From: Methylobacterium organophilum
Lineage (GTDB): Bacteria > Pseudomonadota > Alphaproteobacteria > Rhizobiales > Beijerinckiaceae
DNA length: 64,000 nt
Reading direction: 5' to 3'
NCBI RefSeq assembly: GCF_022179465.1
Contig: NZ_BPQV01000002.1
Location: forward strand, 62,001 to 126,000
Shown here: piece by piece, positions 6,963 to 48,123 of the stretch
How positions within the stretch are numbered: the stretch's first letter is position 1
How the letters are laid out: each line of letters begins with the position of its first letter
Position numbers and translations under genes: made by a program
The notes under the pieces: model-generated
Told to the model about the DNA's origin: nothing
What the model saw: the letters and a program-made list of their open reading frames with translations, nothing else
Database searches by the model: none

Positions 6963-8270
6963 ATGATCCCCCGCTACTCCCGCCCCGCGATGGCCGCGAT
7001 CTGGTCGCCGGAGAGCCGGTTCCGGATCTGGTTCGAGATCGAGGCCCACGCCACCACGGCGCTGGCGAAGATCGGCGTCGTGCCGAAAGAAGCCGCCGAG
7101 AAGGTGTGGGAGAAGGGCCGCGACGCGGTGTTCGACGTCGCCCGCATCGACGAGATCGAGGCGGTGACGAAGCACGACGTCATCGCCTTCCTCACGCATC
7201 TCGCCGAGATCGTCGGGCCGGAGGCGCGCTTCGTCCACCAGGGCATGACCTCCTCGGACGTGCTCGACACCTGCCTCAACGTGCAGCTCACCCAGGCCGC
7301 CGACATCCTGATCGCGGATCTCGACGCCCTGCTCGCCGCGCTGAAGAAGCGCGCCTTCGAGCACAAGCTCACCCCGACCATCGGCCGCTCGCACGGCATC
7401 CATGCCGAGCCGGTCACCTTCGGCCTCAAGCTCGCCCAGGCCTATGCGGAATTCGCCCGCGCCAAGGAGCGGCTGATCGCGGCCCGCAAGGAGGTGGCGA
7501 CCTGCGCCATCTCCGGGGCGGTGGGCACCTTCGCCAATATCGATCCGCGGGTGGAGGAATACGTCGCCGAACAGATGGGCCTGGCCCCGGAGCCGGTCTC
7601 GACGCAGGTCATCCCCCGCGACCGCCACGCCATGTTCTTCGCCGTGCTCGGCGTGATCGCGAGCTCCATGGAGCGGCTCGCCATCGAGGTGCGCCACCTG
7701 CAGCGCACCGAGGTGCTGGAGGCGGAGGAGTTCTTCTCCGAGGGGCAGAAGGGCTCCTCGGCCATGCCGCACAAGCGCAACCCGGTGCTGACCGAGAACA
7801 TCACCGGCCTCGCCCGCATGGTGCGCGGCTACGTGACCCCGGCGCTGGAGAACGTGGCGCTCTGGCACGAGCGGGACATCTCGCATTCCTCGGTCGAGCG
7901 CATGATCGGCCCGGACGCCACCGTGACCCTCGATTTCGCCCTGGCCCGCCTCACCGGCGTGATCGACAAGCTGCTGGTCTACCCGGCCAACATGCAGAAG
8001 AACCTCGATAAGCTCGGCGGCCTCGTCCACTCGCAGCGGGTGCTGCTGGCGCTGACCCAGGGCGGCGTCTCGCGGGAAGATTCCTACCGGCTGGTCCAGC
8101 GCAACGCGATGCCGGTCTGGCGCGGCGAGGGCGACTTCCTCACCCTGCTCAAGGCCGATCCGGAGGTCACCGCCGTGCTCAAGCCCGAGCAGATCGAGGA
8201 ATGCTTCGATCTCGGCTACCACCTGAAGCACGTCGACACGATCTTTTCACGGGTGTTCGGGGAAGCCTGA
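6963..8270 (+). CDS. purB: Adenylosuccinate lyase
   Basis: Removes fumarate from SAICAR and from adenylosuccinate, two steps of purine synthesis; cytosolic homotetramer. 435 residues from ATG 6963 (MIPRYSRPAMAAIWSPE). The fumarase/aspartase superfamily signature SSAMPHKRNP is at about 265-274 with the flexible catalytic Ser loop. Earlier conserved regions are TSSDVLDTCLN (about 96) and GRSHGIHAEP (about 141) with the catalytic His. The C-terminal part LVQRNAMPVWRGEGDF is typical of the short bacterial type. It stands alone, with no other pur genes nearby. Confidence 0.96.
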   Translation: MIPRYSRPAMAAIWSPESRFRIWFEIEAHATTALAKIGVVPKEAAEKVWEKGRDAVFDVARIDEIEAVTKHDVIAFLTHLAEIVGPEARFVHQGMTSSDVLDTCLNVQLTQAADILIADLDALLAALKKRAFEHKLTPTIGRSHGIHAEPVTFGLKLAQAYAEFARAKERLIAARKEVATCAISGAVGTFANIDPRVEEYVAEQMGLAPEPVSTQVIPRDRHAMFFAVLGVIASSMERLAIEVRHLQRTEVLEAEEFFSEGQKGSSAMPHKRNPVLTENITGLARMVRGYVTPALENVALWHERDISHSSVERMIGPDATVTLDFALARLTGVIDKLLVYPANMQKNLDKLGGLVHSQRVLLALTQGGVSREDSYRLVQRNAMPVWRGEGDFLTLLKADPEVTAVLKPEQIEECFDLGYHLKHVDTIFSRVFGEA

Positions 8271-36083: not shown

Positions 36084-39000
36084 ATGTCGATGACCGCCTC
36101 TCCCATGCCCCGGCCTTCCCGGCAGATCGACGCAACCCGGATCGGCCGGGCCGTCGCATTGCTGGCGGGGGTGAGCGTCGGCGCGCTCATGACGGCGCAG
36201 GGGGGCAGGGCCTGGGCCCAGGACGCCGCCCGCTCCTTCGTGCAGCGCGGGAGCGACGGTCGGGAGGGGGTGGACTGCGCCCTGTTCATCGGTTGCCTGG
36301 GTAAGCGGCGGCCCGCGAACGACGGCGACAAGGGGCCGGACCTGCAGGTCACCCAGGGCGATACGCTCTCGAACGTGCAGGGCGTGGCCGTCGAAGCGAA
36401 ATCGATCGGCGGTGCGGGAGGCCGCATGCCGAAGGCCCTTACTTCCGACAACGAGGCCGGGAACGGCGGAAACGGTGGCGCGGTCACCCTCAACGAGACC
36501 GGGGCCGTGAGCGGCGGTGTGGATCGTCAGATCGGGCTCGCGCTGATCAACGTCGCTTCCCAGGGCGGCAAGGGGGGCGAGGGCGGCAATGCCAGCATCG
36601 CTCGGGGCGGTGCTGGCGGGTCCGCCCGCCTCATCCTGCAGGCGCCGGTCTCCGCCTTCGGGGATCGCACCTCGGGCGTCTCGGTCCAGTCCAAGGGCGG
36701 CAAGGCGGGCGACGGCGCGACCTCCGCAAGCAAGCGCTTGGTGCAGACGGGCGGCCAGGGCGGCCTGGCGGAACTCGACGTCACCCCTTCGGGCAGCATC
36801 GTGACGCGCGGCGTCTCCGCGCCCGGCGCCGTGGTCGAGTCCCTCGGCGGTGATGGCGGCATGAGGAATACGCGGGGCGGCAGCGACCTCCCCGGCGATG
36901 CGGGAGCCGGTGGAGAGGCCGTGCTCGTCAACCGCGGCTCGATCGTCACCGAGGGCGCGACCTCGGTGGGCGTGCTCGTCCAGAGCGTCGGCGGCGCCGG
37001 CGGCGGCGATACCACCGGCATCAACGGCTCTGCGGGCGGCAAGGGCGGCGCCGGCGGCGCGGTCACGGTGGACCAGAGCGGGACCCTCGCGACGCTCGGG
37101 GCCTACAGCTCGGCCCTCATCGCGCAATCGGTCGGCGGTCCGGGCGGCGATGGCGGCCGCGCACCCTTCGGCAGCGGCGGCGATGGCGGCGCCGCCGGGG
37201 CCGGCGGCGCGGTGAAGGTGACCCAGTCGGGCACGATCAGCACCTGGGGGACCGGCTCGATGGGCATCCTGGCCCAGAGCGTCGGCGGCGGCAACGCCCT
37301 CGATGCCTTCCAGGCCTCGGCTCCGCAGACCGGGCGCGGCGGCGGCAGCGGTGGCAAGGCCGGCATCCTGCCTTTCACCTCCGGTGGCACGGGCGGCATG
37401 GGCGGCCTCGGCGGTGCGGTCACGGTATTGCAGCAGAACGGGATGATCGAGACGGCCGGCACGGACGCCTACGGCATCCTGGCCCAGAGCATCGGCGGCG
37501 GCGGCGGCGTGGGCGGCGCCGCGATCAAGCCGGGCGCCTTCTTCAGCTACGCGTTGGGTGGCGGCGGCGGGGCCGGGGGTCATGCCGGTAAGGTCCTGGT
37601 GCAGACGACGGGCGGGTCGATCACCACCTCCGGGGACGGGGCGAGCGCAATCCTCGCCGAGAGCATCGGCGGTGGCGGCGGCGCCGGCGGCGTCGCCACG
37701 GCCACGACCGCGAGCCCGGCCTTTGCGGTCGCCCTGTCCGTGGGCGGCAGCGGCGGCGGCGGCGGCAAGGGTGGCGAGGCCCGGATCGAGAGCAGCGCCA
37801 GCGTGAGCACCAGCGGTCGCGCGGCGGTCGGCCTCGACGCGCTCAGCATCGGCGGCGGCGGCGGCGTCGGCGGCTCGGCGCGGTCCACGGCCATCGCGAC
37901 GCCGCTGGTCCTGCCCAATGGCAAGACTCTGCCAAGCATCGCCGTCTCGGCCTCGGTCGGCGGCTCCGGCGGACTCGGCGGCGAGGGCGGCCTGGCCAAG
38001 GTGATCAATGACGGCAGCGTCGTCACCTATGGCGGCGCCTCGATCGGCGTGCAGGCCCTCAGCATCGGTGGTGGCGGCGGCCTCGCCGGCGATGCCTTTG
38101 CCTACGCGCTCGCGGTCGCGCCGCCCGGCGAGGTGGCGTTGAGCTTCAGCACCACGCTCGGCGGAACCGGCGGCGGCGGCGGCAAGGGTGGCCGGGCCGA
38201 GATCACCAATAACGGCTTCGTCTCGACCTCCGGCGACGAGGCCGTCGGTCTTCAGGCGGAGAGCATCGGCGGCGGCGGCGGCAATGCCGGCAAGTCGGAT
38301 GCGACGAGCAACAGTCTCAGTTTGCATCAGAACATCGCCGCCGCGCAGGCCATCGGCGGCAAGGGCGGCAGCGGCGGCGACGGCGGTACGATTGGCGTCG
38401 ACAATCTCGGCACGGTGGTGACCGGCGGCAGCTTCGCCCACGCCATCCTGGCGCAGAGCATCGGCGGCGGCGGCGGCAATGGCGGCAGCGCCACCGGGCT
38501 CGCCATGCCCGGCCTCTCCTTCGACAAGACCCTGAACGATCTGGTCGGCAAGCTCCCGGTGGCGGACACCCTGTCGGTGACCCGCACCATCGGCGGCGAG
38601 GGCGGGGGCGGCGGCAAGGGCCAGGCCGTCACCGTGACCAATGCCGGCGCCCTGCGGACCGGCGGCTCCGACGCCATCGGCATCTTCGCCCAGAGCATCG
38701 GCGGCGGCGGCGGCACCGGCGGCGATGTCCAGGGCGCCGCCCAGGGCAAGCTCAAGGTGAACCTCACCCTCGGCGGCAAGGGCGGCAGCGGCAATACCGG
38801 CGGCGGCGTCACCATCACCAACGCCGCGACGGGCGGAATCGAGACCTGGGGCGACGGCGCCCACGGCATCGTGGCGCAGAGCATCGGCGGCGGTGGCGGC
38901 CAGGGCGGCAGCGTGGCGGCGCGCAAGGCGTCGACGCCGGATGCGGTCGGTGCGATCTGGACCCAGATCAAGCAGGCGATCGGGGTCGAGGCCTATCAGG

Positions 39001-42000
39001 ACTGGGCGAAGGACAAGAAGAACAAGGACACCAAGGAAGCCCTCGATCAGTTCCTGAAGGACATCAAGGAGACTGACAAGTACAAGTCCCTTGCGGCCAA
39101 GATCAAGAATTCCGACTTCGCCAAGATGCTCCAATCCTACAGCAAGAGCGCGTCGGACTATCTGGCGGCTCAGAAGAAGGGCAGCGTCAAGCTGCCCGAC
39201 GTGTCCGCGACCCTGAGCCTCGGCGGCGACGGCGGCAGCGGCGGCAAGGGCGGCGCGGTCACCGTCACCAATGACGGGGCCATCACCACCCTCGGCGCCG
39301 TGGCCCACGGCGTCTTCGCCCAGAGCGTCGGCGGCGGCGGCGGCCAGGGCGGCATGGCCTTCGCCGCCGCGACCAACGCCAACAACTACCGGGCCGTCCT
39401 CGGCGGCACGGGCGGCGACGGCAACGAGGGCGGCACGGTCTCGATCGTCAACCGCGGCGCCGTCGCGACGGCGGACGACATGTCCTACGGCCTTTACGGC
39501 CAGAGCGTCGGCGGTGGCGGCGGCAGCGGCGTGGGCGCCACGACCACCGGCAGCAGCAAGGAGGGCAGCCTGGTCGTCACCCTCAATGTCGGCGGCAACG
39601 GCGGCAAGGGGGGCAAGGGCGGCGACGTCTCGGTCGAGAACACGGGCGCGGTCGTCACCGCCGGCAGCGAGGCCCACGGCATCGTGGCGCAGAGCGTCGG
39701 CGGCGGCGGCGGATCGTTCCTGCTGCCGGTTGCCAAGGAGGCCGGCAAGACGGACGCCTCCGCACAGACCGGCAAGGCGCAGGCGGAGAAGACCCAGTCC
39801 GACAGCGATGCCAAGGAACTCGCCAGTGCGCTGCTGGCGGCGATCGGGATCGAGACGATCCCCGAACAGCCTTCGTCCGAGGGGGCGCCGAAGAGGTCCG
39901 GCAGCCTGACCCTGGGCGGTTCCGGCGAGGCGGCCGGCGACGGCGGCGCAGTGACGGTGACGCAGGGCGGCGCCATCACCACCAGCGGCTTCGGCGCCCT
40001 CGGCATCCTGGCCCAGAGCGTCGGCGGCGGCGGCGGCATGGCAGCGGCGGCGGCCAGCGCCAGCGGCGACGCCTACACCTTCGGGATCGGCGGCTCGGGC
40101 GGCGCGACCGGCAACGGCGGCGCGGTGGGCGTGACCCTCTCGGCCGGCGCGCGGGTGACGACCACGGGCGATGCCGCGACGGCGCTGCTGCTGCAATCGA
40201 TCGGCGGCGGCGGCGGCTATGCCGGTGCGCATCAGGTGATGGGCTACGCGGTGCCGTTCCTGCTCGAGGAGGGTTCGAAGGGCTCGGGGGGCGCCCTCTC
40301 CGTCACCCTCAAGGAGGGCGCCGCGATCCGGACCAGCGGCGAGCGCGCCCACGGCATCCTGGCCCAGAGCCTCGGCGGCGGTGGCGGCCTGGTCGTGGAC
40401 CTTTCCAACCCGATCCTCGCCTCCGGCGCGCTGGTCCAGGCGTCGGATCCGCCCAAGTCGCGCGCCACCTCCACCGGCTCCGGCGGCAGCATCACCATCG
40501 AGAGCGCCGGGTCGATCGTCGCCTCGGGCAAGGATGCCAACGCCATCTTCGCGCAGAGCGGCGTCCAGGGCGGCGACGGCCGCCTCGATCCGACCCGCGC
40601 GGGCGGCACCATCGCCATCACCGTCAAGGACATCGTCAGCGGCGGCAGCGGCACCGGCGCGGCGATCCGCCTGGAGGGCGGCGATTACAGCAACCGGATC
40701 CTGATCGACGAGCGGGCCGTGGTCAGCGCCGCCTCCGGCCGCGCCATCGTCGGGACGATCAACCCGGTCAATATCAAGAACCGAGGCGTTCTGATCGGCG
40801 ATATCGTTCTGACGACCCTCCCAGGGACGATGAGCACCCTGACCAACGGGGCGGATGGCTACGGCGCAGCGATCCTGCGCACACGCCAGGGCGGCGTGAT
40901 CGATCTGGGCGGCAGCGGCAACGGCTCGATGACGAACAACGCCACGCTCGATATCGGCGGGGTCGGCACCGTCGCCCGCACCGACGTGAAGGGCGATTTC
41001 GAACAGCGCAGCAGCGGCCAGTTGCTGGTCGACGTCGCCCCCCTCGCCCCGGCCGGCGCCCTGCGCGCCGACCTTCTGGCCGTGAGCCGCAGTGTCTGGC
41101 TGGACGGCACCGTGCGGCCCAACGTCATCGGAGGGCTCCTGCCTGGGCAGTACACCTTCCTGACGGCGGGCAGCATCGAGAACGCCAACGCGGCGACCTC
41201 GTCCACGACGATCCAGTCTGACTCGGTGCCGGTCTCCTGGGAGATCCTGCGCTCGGGCAACAGCCTCGCCCTGAGCCCGACGGCGCGCTTCACCGCGCCC
41301 GTCGGGATGACGCTCACCGGCGACCAGAAATCCACGGCCGAAGCCCTGCAGACGCTGTGGAACAACGGCTCGATCGGCGAGGCCGGCCTGTTCGCCCGCT
41401 TCCTCTCCGTGGAGAGCAAGAAGAGCTACGCCGCGGCGCTCGACGATCTGAACCAGGAATCGAACCAGTACGTCCTGACCGGCCGCACCCTCGACACCCG
41501 GGCCGGCCTGAAGCGGGCGATGAGTTGCCCCGCCTTCGAGGGCTCCGGCACCCTGTTGCGCGAGGGCGAGTGCGTCTGGGGCCGGGTCACGGCGGCCCGC
41601 ACCAGCCTGTTCTCCTCACCCGGCGAGGGCGGCTACCGCCAGAACGCGCTCAGCTACCAGGGCGGCCTGCAGACCGAGTTCGCCCCGGACTGGTTCTTCG
41701 GCCTGTCGGGCGCCTATACCCGCGCCTACCAGAACGACTCCGACCGCATCAGCGGGACGACGAGCGACGCCGCCGACGTCTCGATGGCGCTCAAGCACCA
41801 GGTCGGCCCCTGGCTGTTCGCGGCCTCGGCCAATGTCGGCTACGCCTGGCAGAACAATCTCCGCTCGGTCAGCATCGGCGACGGGATGTGGTCGGCGCGC
41901 AGCAAGTCGGAGGTGCTGACGGCGGGCGGGCGCCTGCGGGCGAGCTACCAGTTCCTGTTCGACGGCTGGTACATCAAGCCCTACGCCGACCTCGACCTGC

Positions 42001-42395
42001 TCTACACGCACAGCCCGGCCTATTCGGAGACGGGCGCGCCGGAGGTCAATCTCGACATCCGCGCCATGAGCAAGACCCTGGTGGCCTTCAGCCCGAACGT
42101 CGAGATCGGCGGCCGCTTCGATTTCGACAACGGCCGCTGGCTGCGCCCCTACGGCATCCTCGGCGTGACGCTCCTGTCCGACGACCACTTCACCGGCCTG
42201 GCGAGCTTCCAGGGCAGCGGCGGCCTCGGGGTGTTCGCCACCGCCTCGCGCATCCCGGACACGATCGGCGAGGCCGGCCTCGGCTTCCAGATCGGGCTCG
42301 GCGGCGGCATCGAGCTGACGGGCGAGTACCAGGCCCATGTCGGCGACCGCTTCCTCTCGCATACCGGCACCGCCCGCCTCTCCGCACGGTTCTGA
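36084..42395 (+). CDS. Giant glycine-rich autotransporter (type V secretion)
   Basis: 2,103 residues. A long signal peptide ends at AWAQ (46). The passenger, about 47-1800, consists of some twenty imperfect units of about 60-80 residues with a core like 'GGAVTVTNxGxIxTxG...HGIxAQSIGGGGGxGG', which should form a right-handed beta-helix with Gly-rich turns. Two stretches break the pattern: about 952-1032 (Lys/Asp-rich, e.g. DWAKDKKNKDTKEALDQFL, probably helical) and about 1213-1272 (KEAGKTDASAQTGKAQAEK). The C-terminal translocator, about 1828-2103, is an autotransporter barrel (VWGRVTAARTSLFSS onward) ending in ARF with the terminal Phe. Surface display and adhesion are likely roles. The start could also be the second Met (M3). 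Confidence 0.92.
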   Translation: MSMTASPMPRPSRQIDATRIGRAVALLAGVSVGALMTAQGGRAWAQDAARSFVQRGSDGREGVDCALFIGCLGKRRPANDGDKGPDLQVTQGDTLSNVQGVAVEAKSIGGAGGRMPKALTSDNEAGNGGNGGAVTLNETGAVSGGVDRQIGLALINVASQGGKGGEGGNASIARGGAGGSARLILQAPVSAFGDRTSGVSVQSKGGKAGDGATSASKRLVQTGGQGGLAELDVTPSGSIVTRGVSAPGAVVESLGGDGGMRNTRGGSDLPGDAGAGGEAVLVNRGSIVTEGATSVGVLVQSVGGAGGGDTTGINGSAGGKGGAGGAVTVDQSGTLATLGAYSSALIAQSVGGPGGDGGRAPFGSGGDGGAAGAGGAVKVTQSGTISTWGTGSMGILAQSVGGGNALDAFQASAPQTGRGGGSGGKAGILPFTSGGTGGMGGLGGAVTVLQQNGMIETAGTDAYGILAQSIGGGGGVGGAAIKPGAFFSYALGGGGGAGGHAGKVLVQTTGGSITTSGDGASAILAESIGGGGGAGGVATATTASPAFAVALSVGGSGGGGGKGGEARIESSASVSTSGRAAVGLDALSIGGGGGVGGSARSTAIATPLVLPNGKTLPSIAVSASVGGSGGLGGEGGLAKVINDGSVVTYGGASIGVQALSIGGGGGLAGDAFAYALAVAPPGEVALSFSTTLGGTGGGGGKGGRAEITNNGFVSTSGDEAVGLQAESIGGGGGNAGKSDATSNSLSLHQNIAAAQAIGGKGGSGGDGGTIGVDNLGTVVTGGSFAHAILAQSIGGGGGNGGSATGLAMPGLSFDKTLNDLVGKLPVADTLSVTRTIGGEGGGGGKGQAVTVTNAGALRTGGSDAIGIFAQSIGGGGGTGGDVQGAAQGKLKVNLTLGGKGGSGNTGGGVTITNAATGGIETWGDGAHGIVAQSIGGGGGQGGSVAARKASTPDAVGAIWTQIKQAIGVEAYQDWAKDKKNKDTKEALDQFLKDIKETDKYKSLAAKIKNSDFAKMLQSYSKSASDYLAAQKKGSVKLPDVSATLSLGGDGGSGGKGGAVTVTNDGAITTLGAVAHGVFAQSVGGGGGQGGMAFAAATNANNYRAVLGGTGGDGNEGGTVSIVNRGAVATADDMSYGLYGQSVGGGGGSGVGATTTGSSKEGSLVVTLNVGGNGGKGGKGGDVSVENTGAVVTAGSEAHGIVAQSVGGGGGSFLLPVAKEAGKTDASAQTGKAQAEKTQSDSDAKELASALLAAIGIETIPEQPSSEGAPKRSGSLTLGGSGEAAGDGGAVTVTQGGAITTSGFGALGILAQSVGGGGGMAAAAASASGDAYTFGIGGSGGATGNGGAVGVTLSAGARVTTTGDAATALLLQSIGGGGGYAGAHQVMGYAVPFLLEEGSKGSGGALSVTLKEGAAIRTSGERAHGILAQSLGGGGGLVVDLSNPILASGALVQASDPPKSRATSTGSGGSITIESAGSIVASGKDANAIFAQSGVQGGDGRLDPTRAGGTIAITVKDIVSGGSGTGAAIRLEGGDYSNRILIDERAVVSAASGRAIVGTINPVNIKNRGVLIGDIVLTTLPGTMSTLTNGADGYGAAILRTRQGGVIDLGGSGNGSMTNNATLDIGGVGTVARTDVKGDFEQRSSGQLLVDVAPLAPAGALRADLLAVSRSVWLDGTVRPNVIGGLLPGQYTFLTAGSIENANAATSSTTIQSDSVPVSWEILRSGNSLALSPTARFTAPVGMTLTGDQKSTAEALQTLWNNGSIGEAGLFARFLSVESKKSYAAALDDLNQESNQYVLTGRTLDTRAGLKRAMSCPAFEGSGTLLREGECVWGRVTAARTSLFSSPGEGGYRQNALSYQGGLQTEFAPDWFFGLSGAYTRAYQNDSDRISGTTSDAADVSMALKHQVGPWLFAASANVGYAWQNNLRSVSIGDGMWSARSKSEVLTAGGRLRASYQFLFDGWYIKPYADLDLLYTHSPAYSETGAPEVNLDIRAMSKTLVAFSPNVEIGGRFDFDNGRWLRPYGILGVTLLSDDHFTGLASFQGSGGLGVFATASRIPDTIGEAGLGFQIGLGGGIELTGEYQAHVGDRFLSHTGTARLSARF

Positions 42396-45629: not shown

Positions 45630-45740
45630 TTAGCCGAAGCTCGCGGGCAGGGCGAGGCTCTGCGCATACAGGGCAAGAGCGGTGGCGGTGCCCAGGAGAC
45701 CAAGAACGGTGAGGGTGAAACGCGCTTTCAGGCTGGTCAT
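45630..45740 (-). CDS. 36-residue hydrophobic small protein
   Basis: Starts MTSLKARFTLTVLGLLGTAT and ends ALYAQSLALPASFG. The ATG at 45740 has a near-perfect AAGGAGG 7 bases upstream, the best ribosome site of the neighbourhood. The basic start and single hydrophobic helix suggest a membrane peptide or signal-like peptide. It lies in the same orientation as, and about 220 bases downstream of, the two double-glycine leader peptide genes. No relative is known to me. Confidence 0.6.
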   Translation of the reverse strand: MTSLKARFTLTVLGLLGTATALALYAQSLALPASFG

Positions 45741-45883
45741 GACTGGCCTCCTTCGTGCCAGATGTTGATTTGCAAGCTCAACGCGGTGTTAAGGCCAAGG
45801 TTTCACGGCTCAAGTGTGCCGACGCACCTGGGCCGTGGCCAGATGTCCGCGTATCTCGGGGGGCGAGGCGCCGACGATGCGAT

Positions 45884-45975
45884 GGCGATCCGGCCAGAAA
45901 CGAACAAGCCCGCCGCGGCGAACCGGGCGGGCCGAAATGGCGCGGCTTGGGACGGTGTTCGCTTACCGGCGGAAG
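45884..45975 (-). repeat. 92-bp repeat, copy A (3' end and terminator of leader peptide gene A)
   Basis: Matches 46641-46732 at 90 of 92 positions, same orientation. It contains the last four codons of peptide gene A and all of its downstream region including a hairpin terminator. Beyond the repeat the identity falls off quickly on both sides, except in the last part of the coding frame. Confidence 0.9.
45908..45932 (-). terminator. Intrinsic terminator of leader peptide gene A
   Basis: On the minus strand, GCCCGCC and GGCGGGC form a 7-bp GC stem around an 11-base loop, followed by TTGTTCGTTTCT. It lies about 30 bases after the stop of the peptide gene. Confidence 0.75.
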
Positions 45976-46202
45976 GTGTTCCGCGTGAGCGTCTTCGTCT
46001 TGCCACGGCTCCCTTCGCTCTCGTGGCGATACTCCCCATGCAAGGGGCGCTTGCTCGTGACACGTGCCATGGTGTTGAAAAAGTCTTCGAACGCCGAGCG
46101 GGCACCGCCATGGACCTGATCGAGAGCGTCGTCGGAAAGAAGAACGGGCTTGGCGCCGATGGTCTGATCGGTGGTCATCGCGGTCATGTCACGGTGGGTC
46201 AT
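45963..46202 (-). CDS. Double-glycine leader peptide A (bacteriocin/RiPP-like precursor)
   Basis: 79 residues from ATG 46202, with AGGAG 8 bases upstream. The leader ends LLSDDALDQVHGG at residue 33, the hydrophobic/acidic pattern of double-glycine leaders cut by C39-peptidase ABC exporters. The predicted core (46 residues, starting ARSAFEDFFNTMARV) is basic at its end, RGKTKTLTRNTFRR. A paralogue at 46720-46944 shares the leader pattern, the SAF.D start of the core and RGKTKT.T...FRR at the end. No exporter, modification or immunity gene is visible nearby, so secretion is inferred from the leader only. Function unknown. Confidence 0.72.
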   Translation of the reverse strand: MTHRDMTAMTTDQTIGAKPVLLSDDALDQVHGGARSAFEDFFNTMARVTSKRPLHGEYRHESEGSRGKTKTLTRNTFRR

Positions 46203-46640
46203 GGGAAGATCTCCTGATGTCGGTGCGACGTCTTGTTGGCGTCTGTCGTGATTGACACCGGATCGCCCCGGCTTGGCTGTGTTCGGGAGCACGCGGCCAC
46301 GCTTTGCCGCCGCGGCGATCCACAGGGCACCGGGGCCGCCGAAAGAAGGGCCGTCAGGACACGACTTCGGAGAGGCCGGCCTCCTGAGAACGGTGTGTCG
46401 GAGATCACGCGTGGGCGGCATCGGGCGACGGCTTCGGAGCATCGCATCCGAACCTCACGCCCAGGCGGTCGGCAAGGCCGCGACCGGCGTGGCGGAGTGC
46501 GGCGAGCGCAACGCGAACTTGGTCGACCTGTCCTTGCGGGCGCGCTCCAGCGCGCGTTGCAGGACTCCATCGCCGCCATCAAGGGCCGGAGCGCTCGCGG
46601 TTGAGCGGCCCGATCGGTGCCTGGGCGCGATTTCTGCGGC
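46203..46640. other. Spacer between the two leader peptide genes
   Basis: 438 GC-rich bases. No supported gene on either strand; short frames show no family. The promoter of leader peptide gene A is expected in the right-hand part next to 46202. Confidence 0.45.
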
Positions 46641-46732
46641 GGCGATCCGGCCAGAAACGAACAAGCCCGCCGCGGCGAACCGGGCGGGCCAAAATGGCGC
46701 GGCTTGGGACGGCGTTCGCTTACCGGCGGAAG
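46641..46732 (-). repeat. 92-bp repeat, copy B (3' end and terminator of leader peptide gene B)
   Basis: Matches 45884-45975 at 90 of 92 positions. It covers the last four codons and the downstream region of peptide gene B. Confidence 0.9.
46665..46689 (-). terminator. Intrinsic terminator of leader peptide gene B
   Basis: Same hairpin as in copy A (GCCCGCC / GGCGGGC, 11-base loop), followed on the minus strand by TTGTTCGTTTCT. Confidence 0.75.
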
Positions 46733-46944
46733 TGGCTCTGCGTGACCGTCTTCGTCTTGCCGCGGACCGTCTGGCTCTCCTGATGGTAGCTCACCTGGGT
46801 CGCGCCGTTGCCGATGCCGCGCTTGATGTCGTTGAACATGCTGTTGAGGTCTCCGAACGCCGACCCGGCGCCGCCGTTGACCGACTCGAGCTCGTCGTCG
46901 TTCAGGCGAACCGGGGCATTCTGCTCAGCGGACTTGGTCGTCAT
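46720..46944 (-). CDS. Double-glycine leader peptide B (bacteriocin/RiPP-like precursor)
   Basis: 74 residues from ATG 46944; AGAGG lies 7 bases upstream, and an ATG two codons earlier is too close to that site. Leader MTTKSAEQNAPVRLNDDELE-SVNGG ends in the double glycine at residue 25, a textbook L-x-x-x-E-L-x-x-V-x-GG pattern. The core AGSAFGDLNSMFNDIKRGIG... is about 49 residues, contains no Cys, and ends VRGKTKTVTQSHFRR like peptide A. Absence of Cys argues against lanthipeptide or sactipeptide processing. Its upstream region differs from that of gene A, while the 3' regions are nearly identical. Confidence 0.75.
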   Translation of the reverse strand: MTTKSAEQNAPVRLNDDELESVNGGAGSAFGDLNSMFNDIKRGIGNGATQVSYHQESQTVRGKTKTVTQSHFRR

Positions 46945-47199
46945 GATCATACCTCTGATGGATGGTCTGAAAAGTCGTTCGCCTTTCAGATGAAAAGACC
47001 CTAGCCGTCGGATGTTTCTCTCTTCTTGCTTCGAATGCGCGCAATTTTCATCAATGCGCGGCGGCCGATGACAGCGTTAACGCGCTCTTCGACCGCGCAT
47101 CATGCTGGGAGAATGAGAGCCAGGGTTGTCGTCCGAACGATCGAAGCACGTGCGGAAGGACGGCTGATCAGGCCGGTGCCGATCGCGGCCCCGCGGCGC

Positions 47200-48123
47200 T
47201 CAGACGCCGTCCTCTGTCGCCAGGCGGCGACTTGACGCCGGCAGCGCGGCGACCAGCGCGTTCAGGAAGGCTTTCACCGCCCGCGGAAGGGGGCGGTCGC
47301 GCATGGTCTGGACCTGGATCCCGCGCAGCAGGCTGCTTTTCGTCCGGACCGGGATCTGGATCAGCTCGCCGAGCTGCACCGGGGTCTGCACGGTGAAGGC
47401 CGACATCAGGGCGAGGCCCTGCGTGTGACGCACGAAGGGCAGGAGGGAGGACAGCACGTTCGAGGTCAGCACCGGCTCGATCGCGATCCCCTCGGCGGAG
47501 CAGGCCGCCTCGAAGACGAGGCGAACCGTGGTGTCGCGGGTGGGCAGCGCCAGCGGAAAGGCGGCGAGATCCGGGAGCTGGATCATCGGCGATCCCGCTA
47601 GGGGATGATCCGGCGCGCATACGGCGATCATCTCGACCTGCGCCTCGTAGACTACGGCCACCGGCTGGGTCGAGGCCAGCTTGAAGGTCACGCCGATATC
47701 GGCCTCGCCGGCGGCGACCACCTGGGTGACCTGCGCCGGGGGCAGCATCGTCAATTCGAAGCGGAGACCGGGATAGCGGCGATGGAAGTCCGCGATGACC
47801 CTCGGCACGAGATCAATGGCGAAGCCCTCCGAGCAGGAAATCCGGATCAGGCCGCGGACGAGGCCCCGCAATTCCTGGATCTCGGTGACGACCTGCTCGG
47901 CCCGCTGCAGCACGTGATGGGCGTGCTGGGCCAGGAGCTCCCCGGCCGGGCTCGGCACCATGCCGCGCGGGCGCCGCTCGAACAGCACGCAATCGAGCTC
48001 GGCCTCGAGATTGGCGATCTGCCGGCTGATCGCCGAGGCGGCGACGTTGAGTTGGCCCGAGGCGGCGGCGATCGAGCCGGTTCGGGCCACCGCCAGGAAG
48101 TAGCGCAGGCTGGTCGTCTGCAC
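47200..48123 (-). CDS. LysR-family transcriptional regulator
   Basis: 307 residues from GTG 48123. N-terminal winged HTH TTSLRYFLAVARTGSIAAASGQLNVAASAISRQIANLEAEL at 3-43, then linker helix and the type 2 periplasmic-binding-like effector domain from about 90 (GLIRISCSEGFAIDLVPRVIADFHRRYPGLRFEL). It is divergent from the peptide ABC transporter operon (161 bases between starts), so it most likely controls that operon in response to a substrate or breakdown product. The ATG at 48174 would add 17 residues not usual in the family. Confidence 0.9.
   Translation of the reverse strand: MQTTSLRYFLAVARTGSIAAASGQLNVAASAISRQIANLEAELDCVLFERRPRGMVPSPAGELLAQHAHHVLQRAEQVVTEIQELRGLVRGLIRISCSEGFAIDLVPRVIADFHRRYPGLRFELTMLPPAQVTQVVAAGEADIGVTFKLASTQPVAVVYEAQVEMIAVCAPDHPLAGSPMIQLPDLAAFPLALPTRDTTVRLVFEAACSAEGIAIEPVLTSNVLSSLLPFVRHTQGLALMSAFTVQTPVQLGELIQIPVRTKSSLLRGIQVQTMRDRPLPRAVKAFLNALVAALPASSRRLATEDGV

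Follow-up and report, generated by a model that had tools for sequence, protein, structure and literature searches.

What do two neighbouring small genes encode when their products carry double-glycine (GG) leaders and no partner gene is recognised beside them, and by which exporter would such products leave the cell? The window, i.e., the whole stretch of 64,000 nucleotides of Methylobacterium organophilum analysed here, raises this question through two minus-strand genes, those for the peptide A precursor (45963..46202) and the peptide B precursor (46720..46944). Our reading, which we consider probable and which was reached by sequence comparison, is that A and B are unlinked short-leader substrates of an NHLM-type ABC exporter, with cores that are cut and exported as part of a dispersed GG set. 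Specifically, both would be precursors of small basic peptides; the exporter's C39 peptidase domain would recognise their leaders (33 and 25 residues), and cutting after Gly-Gly would be followed by export of cores of 46–49 residues. The sequences themselves show the ORFs, the GG leaders, the exporter genes, a common upstream element and a leader/core mosaic; cleavage, export, the choice of exporter and co-regulation are inferred from them.

The A gene starts with an ATG at 46202, has AGGAG 8 nt upstream (46211-46215) and ends its stop codon at 45963; the product of 79 aa divides into a 33-aa leader (MTHRDM...LSDDALDQVHGG) and a 46-aa core (ARSAF...TFRR). The B gene starts with an ATG at 46944, 7 nt from AGAGG (46952-46956), and ends its stop codon at 46720; an alternative in-frame ATG at 46950 lies only 1 nt from AGAGG. 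Its product of 74 aa consists of a 25-aa leader (MTTKSAEQNAPVRLNDDELESVNGG) and a 49-aa core (AGSAF...HFRR). The leaders end in LSDDALDQVHGG (A) and LNDDELESVNGG (B), neither protein contains Cys, and the cores are basic (computed pI 11.3 for A and 10.4 for B; computed masses when unmodified 5431 and 5385 Da), each with an SAF.D start and an RGKTKT.T...FRR end. Read on the minus strand, both ORFs thus bear out the GG leaders, Cys-free basic cores, shared core ends and ribosome sites of the original prediction. The duplication that it described holds as well and runs 79 nt beyond the stop codons with 2 mismatches, into two copies of a G+C-rich, terminator-like hairpin repeat recognised by comparison with each other (45884..45962 (-) downstream of A; 46641..46719 (-) downstream of B). 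Both terminator folds are no better than those of shuffled sequences (z -0.35 for 45890-45962 and 0.10 for 46645-46719).

PHROGs returned no listing for A, B or the third paralogue C (below) at E<=0.1, and the best PDB match by sequence had an E of 0.71. An AlphaFold2 model of B (76-aa form, 4 sequences; mean pLDDT 65, pTM 0.29) has a C-terminal beta-hairpin as well as a helix over residues 18-47 that spans the GG site, in blocks of mean pLDDT 76-82; as a whole it is too weak for a fold search.

A and B are paralogous, as predicted, but the pair is not alone. The source genome (G000; 113 contigs, 5.06 Mb in total) carries a third full paralogue, C, at G000:C2:408075-408326, as well as D at C2:219.8 kb, which is related through its leader only, and further dispersed GG peptides, and a genome taken as Methylorubrum zatmanii LMG 6087 (G111) carries a homologue 64% identical to B. 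The GG and the reading frame are kept in all four full members of what we call core family I (A, B, C and the G111 homologue), as is the leader form L-x4-L-x2-V-x-GG; the loss of GG from homologues, which would have spoken against the prediction, is seen in none. The third copy and the G111 homologue, with GG and frame intact, thus make the A/B observation more than chance. A search across genus genomes found strong matches to the family in 2 of 112, G000 and G111 (best one E 1.3e-24 or better), with four further genomes at E 0.07-0.09. Beyond the genus set, a contig scan gave one locus, in M. zatmanii; the A2 alignment run against a draw of 397 order genomes, among whose matches G111 is absent, gave two weak partial matches outside G000 (E 0.008 and 0.009); peptide A, searched in a draw of 199 family genomes, had no match below E 0.004 other than in G000; and plasmid searches gave no match to the A/B family. 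Literature searches returned no title on these peptides among the matches listed, and no paper combining Methylobacterium with a peptidase-containing ABC transporter.

The paralogues form a leader/core mosaic. At the DNA level, A and C agree at 97 of 99 leader positions and, over the N-terminal core half, at 48 of 72, whereas B and C agree at 47 of 81 leader positions and at 73 of 81 in the compared core part; in C, therefore, the leader of A is combined with a B-like core, and the switch falls at or close to the GG site. The likeness of A and C continues ahead of the start codon (97% over 170 aligned nt), where B differs from both. In its leader region B resembles D instead (72% over 75 nt), the core of which is different. 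In front of their start codons the two genes with a B-type leader, B (46945-47010) and D, show a CTGAA..TTCAG inverted repeat, which may be chance. On our reading, new precursors would come about through copying and through exchange of a 5' block (upstream element plus leader) against cores.

Which exporter, then, would serve such precursors? A PF03412 search of the source genome returned two C39 exporter genes, in agreement with the prediction of a C39-peptidase exporter elsewhere; the evidence below points to the NHLM one. The absence of recognised partner genes, also claimed, holds locally but not genome-wide, where these two exporters are present. The first is an NHLM-type ABC1 gene (G000:C5:150094-152229) adjoined by ABC2 and HlyD genes, all three over the cut-offs of the NCBIfam NHLM models TIGR03796/97/94 (ABC1 960.3 vs 853.3, ABC2 811.3 vs 709.4, HlyD 228.7 vs 156.2 bits). 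The C39 catalytic motifs are present near the start of the exporter protein, as ECGAAC and NHFVVL. This ABC1 belongs to a supported clade of ten (G000, G100, G011, G032, G111, G039, G110b, G002, G079 and G103; 70-85% identity to that of G000), separate from a second clade of eight at about 48%. The second exporter gene, a C39 ABC exporter with HlyD at G000:C3:256728-258779, falls under the NHLM cut-offs. Near it lie two glycine-rich GG-leader peptides (L004:5621-5839 (-) and 7974-8195 (+), i.e., G000:C3 ~252.6-255.2 kb), Cdz-like in look on reading, one of which reaches 20.3 bits against PF10439 (cut-off 27.1). With A and B on contig C2 and the NHLM exporter on C5, the source genome offers no linkage between them. 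Against our reading, moreover, no GG precursor was found in 20 kb around this genome's own NHLM exporter, even with GG allowed up to residue 130.

Leader sequences, genus-wide distribution and linkage in relatives suggest that the NHLM exporter, rather than the other C39 exporter, handles A and B. The leader profile A3 was built without window sequences from 18 GG leaders picked by eye in motif scans near NHLM ABC1 genes (20 stretches from other genus genomes); on reading, some of these resemble the last part of longer, Nif11-like leaders. Searched in six frames against the source genome (5.06 Mb), the profile placed B, A and C first to third (E 0.0126, 0.0173 and 0.0194, values that are modest for leaders alone). 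Next came the GG peptides of C12:121.4 kb, C4:306.5 kb (GG after SAA) and C6:84.5 kb, and one of the glycine-rich C3 peptides appeared at E 0.5. The C4 locus comprises two matches 360 bases apart (G000:C4:306520 and 306880; L073, L077), near-identical peptides with the leader end SAAGG and Cys in the core, and the C12 peptide (G000:C12:121454, L072) has a GG paralogue on another contig (G000:C6:275134, L078), the two sharing WSFFPxPDI...KYKDGKY cores.

Over the genus, profile matches at E<=0.1 occur in 29 of 112 genomes: all 19 that are NHLM+ (an NHLM ABC1 over cut-off) and 10 of 93 that are NHLM-. Without the 12 genomes supplying or sharing training leaders, the comparison is 7/7 NHLM+ vs 10/93 NHLM- (Fisher 1.2e-6, kinship uncorrected) and, at E<=0.005, 5/7 vs 0/93. 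Among the ten NHLM- matches, four (G014, G095, G098, G099) are glycine-rich GG peptides ~2 kb or less from a non-NHLM C39-type match, and the other six have no GG site. The most matches in any of the 112 genomes, nine on six contigs (C12, C15, C34, C47, C59, C81), belong to G031. Both genomes with strong family I matches are within the 19 NHLM+.

The alternative that fares best, though we think it unlikely, is that the C3 exporter cleaves and exports both precursors, either by itself or alongside the NHLM one. Its C39 domain is over the Pfam cut-off, it probably has GG substrates of its own nearby, and C39 exporters can be promiscuous. A leader PSSM that compares NHLM-linked leaders with those of other exporters nevertheless favours the NHLM class by ~9 bits for A (24.9 vs 16.0) and ~16 bits for B (29.3 vs 13.4); the other-exporter class rests on four leaders, and in leave-one-out runs all four were placed correctly and 2 of 18 NHLM-linked leaders were misplaced. 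The strongest genus-wide matches to the leader profile likewise go with NHLM. The leader profile, its distribution over the genus and the exporter linkage seen in relatives (below) together argue for the NHLM exporter.

That linkage emerges from a conserved element directly upstream of A (46203..46289 (-)), which contains the dyads GTG-N8-CAC and GRYGC-N7-RCRTC. It is common to A, C, the peptide at C6:84k and nine sites in three other genomes; as points against our reading, it was not found upstream of B, nor in the 170 nt upstream of the NHLM exporter's HlyD gene. A sequence-only model (R1; built from 7 sites and run on the 112 genomes, with stricter filters that may lose weak sites) reached E<1e-10 at 12 sites, three in each of G000, G111, G039 and G103, all NHLM+. 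Every one of the 12, including all five outside the model, immediately precedes an ORF with a GG or AG leader. Two weaker sites (L152 and L153; E 2.6e-4 and 0.0015) have no GG peptide, and 21 further sites at E 0.005-0.05 stand outside the count of inspected sites. GTG-N8-CAC is present at all 12 sites, and the second dyad, near the ribosome site, has all five pairs in eight and lacks one pair in four. The element may be an RNA hairpin or a DNA operator: across the 12 sites 92.6% of cells pair in the hairpin, a level that 89 of 500 shuffles also attain; one pair shows compensatory changes (three sequences), and the covariation score is attained by 15 of 500 shuffles. Its presence in 4 of the 10 genomes of the G000-type exporter clade requires three changes on the exporter tree and does not define one clade, a further point against our reading. 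As an upstream element in common, it would bring A, C and the C6:84k peptide under co-regulation.

Behind this element stand four core families: I (A, C and the G111 homologue), II (WDHSGK..SM.VT), III (glycine-rich) and IV (DLFGV.HHTMGT). The 5' region of A also precedes GG peptides with unrelated cores, at C6:84k and, before glycine-rich ones, in G039, G111 and G103, and family IV leaders match A's leader without gaps at 18, 17 and 17 of 33 positions. Linkage to the exporter is seen only for core family II and only in other genomes: in G111, in G011 and in G079, with the gene there truncated at the contig end, the distance to NHLM ABC1 is 3-4 kb; in G000, G103 and G039 family II is unlinked to the exporter and lies behind the element. 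The family II peptide at C6:84k (L144:6479-6715) has a match to PF15544 (Ntox6; E 5.8e-4, 19.9 bits, cut-off 25) that is probably chance, and PF15544 is not listed for its G111 homologue. When orthologous cassettes were compared together with flanking DNA, the shared part was only 339-556 bp in 9 of 10 pairs, the exception being family III of G111 and G039, which is syntenic over 8 kb; the unlike flanks of the nine thus give no indication of a conserved immunity or modification gene. From these patterns we would give an even chance to a broader proposal: that in one Methylobacterium clade the NHLM exporter serves scattered, co-regulated, unmodified short-leader peptides, encoded in stand-alone cassettes of ~340-560 bp (element, leader and core) without linked immunity or partner genes, at sites that differ by species and with a common 5' block before at least four unrelated cores. 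Our main reading already counts A and B among the members of a scattered group of GG peptides that differ in their cores.

Selection on the cores bears on a second alternative. Pooled over non-independent pairs, core dN/dS is 0.22, 0.17 and 0.14 for families II, III and IV, values low enough to indicate constrained, real peptides. For family I, on the same pooled and non-independent basis, it is 1.13 for cores and 0.62 for leaders; the window family thus diversifies or drifts, and the numbers are too few to choose. A core value of ~1.1 gives no constraint signal on the mature part and to that extent counts against our reading. The family I copies could accordingly be drifting duplicates, their leaders alike through recency and recombination and their cores unconstrained, and the restriction of strong family I matches to two genus genomes fits such a history. 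Diversifying selection would, however, be expected to yield the same ratio, and all four copies keep the frame, the GG, the AGGAG/AGAGG site and the FRR end, with alignment indels that are whole codons. We regard drift as improbable, more so than use of the C3 exporter.

A third alternative arises from the known NHLM systems. NHLM exporters have been described with NHLP and N11P precursors, the GG sites of which end on average at residues 83 and 70 (PMC2887384). As far as the available part of that account goes, likenesses to A/B include the TIGR03794/03796/03797 exporter, the GG motif with an acidic/Leu pattern, and precursors that are paralogous, vary in their cores and in some cases lie far from partner genes. 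A and B might, by extension, be modified RiPP precursors with a tailoring enzyme encoded elsewhere; the described association of these exporters with modified precursors and the Ser and Thr in the cores speak for this. The A/B leaders are, in contrast, short (33 and 25 aa against averages of 70-83 aa in the available part of that account), the cores are Cys-free, there is a shared upstream element, and a reading of the ORFs listed for the 20 kb surrounding the NHLM exporter, where the family search covered the three exporter genes, recognised no tailoring enzyme. We accordingly hold modification to be very unlikely. Nif11 (PF07862) has no Pfam listing at E<=10 for either peptide and is absent in 7/7 genomes tested, G000 included (the control matched in Synechococcus elongatus), and NHLP (TIGR03793) is not listed for either in NCBIfam at E<=0.1.

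Class II bacteriocins share the leader pattern through their GG-leader families (PF10439, TIGR01847, NF038167), yet the A/B cores are unrelated. B stays under the cut-offs of PF10439 (15.0 vs 27.1), NF038167 (18.7 vs 32) and TIGR03949 (16.9 vs 21.5), A under that of NF038167 (14.7 vs 32), and TIGR01847 is not listed for either at E<=0.1; the C12 peptide of the source genome passes this last leader model (17.4 vs 15.7 bits). Two other systems resemble A/B by description, with sequences left aside and within the parts of the reports at hand. Cyanobacterial EbfG1-4 are small GG proteins whose secretion needs the C39 exporter PteB and which are needed for biofilm (PMC4997328), the likeness lying in small GG proteins combined with a C39 transporter. 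The Caulobacter peptides CdzC and CdzD, of a system that includes CdzAB and CdzI, are small, type I-exported and kill on contact (PMC5380434), again alphaproteobacterial small peptides with type I secretion; a Cdz-like composition is apparent on reading in the glycine-rich peptides near the C3 exporter and in core family III. Unlike what the available part of the Cdz report describes, the A/B cores are basic and not glycine-zipper, the exporters lie on other contigs, and no immunity or exporter gene was recognised beside A/B. Taken together, these family comparisons suggest that A and B work like C39-exported GG peptides, with NHLM as the inferred exporter, and they class them neither as bacteriocins nor as NHLP/N11P. 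The last alternative, chance GG motifs in cytosolic, non-exported small proteins, would account for a short motif with modest leader-only E-values, but is hardly credible beside the top three genome ranks, the NHLM association over the genus and the element before GG/AG peptides at all 12 strong sites.

The original observation is thus confirmed, and its interpretation, in which an exporter encoded elsewhere cuts and exports the cores as a toxin, signal or adhesin, is partly supported. What the cores would do outside the cell we can only guess, apart from any computation: antagonism of neighbours seems the leading candidate, though somewhat short of even odds, a surface or biofilm role is possible but clearly behind it, signalling is doubtful, and some other role is slightly less likely again. 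According to the available part of its account, the NHLM exporter is more widespread than its long-leader precursors, which leaves a chance of finding more precursor families (PMC2887384). The A/B set provides concrete short-leader candidates together with a leader profile that finds them, and the element model led to GG/AG-leader peptides at all the strong sites outside its own training. If the broader proposal above is right, the set would represent a Gram-negative peptide-secretion regulon made by leader/core exchange, and substrates could be named for NHLM exporters in genomes that lack Nif11-type long-leader precursors.

The surroundings of the pair vary among relatives. On reading, the genes that neighbour A/B in the window encode a LysR-type and a cytochrome c-like protein; the region was matched in 25 of 61 genomes in an empty-site test, which found no clean empty site. 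The two neighbouring genes lie apart in all four relatives showing both (G024, G029, G043, G105), which makes the window junction variable. An Rfam search of 45700-47300 gave one sub-threshold match, taken as chance. Between A and B, the spacer 46377-46620 is a mosaic of pieces, 55-100 nt long, that have 84-90% matches on contigs C16, C7 and C14 of the source genome. Elsewhere in the window, 36084-42395 (+) holds an ORF of 2103 aa with many GG-rich repeats and, on reading, an autotransporter-like C-terminal region.
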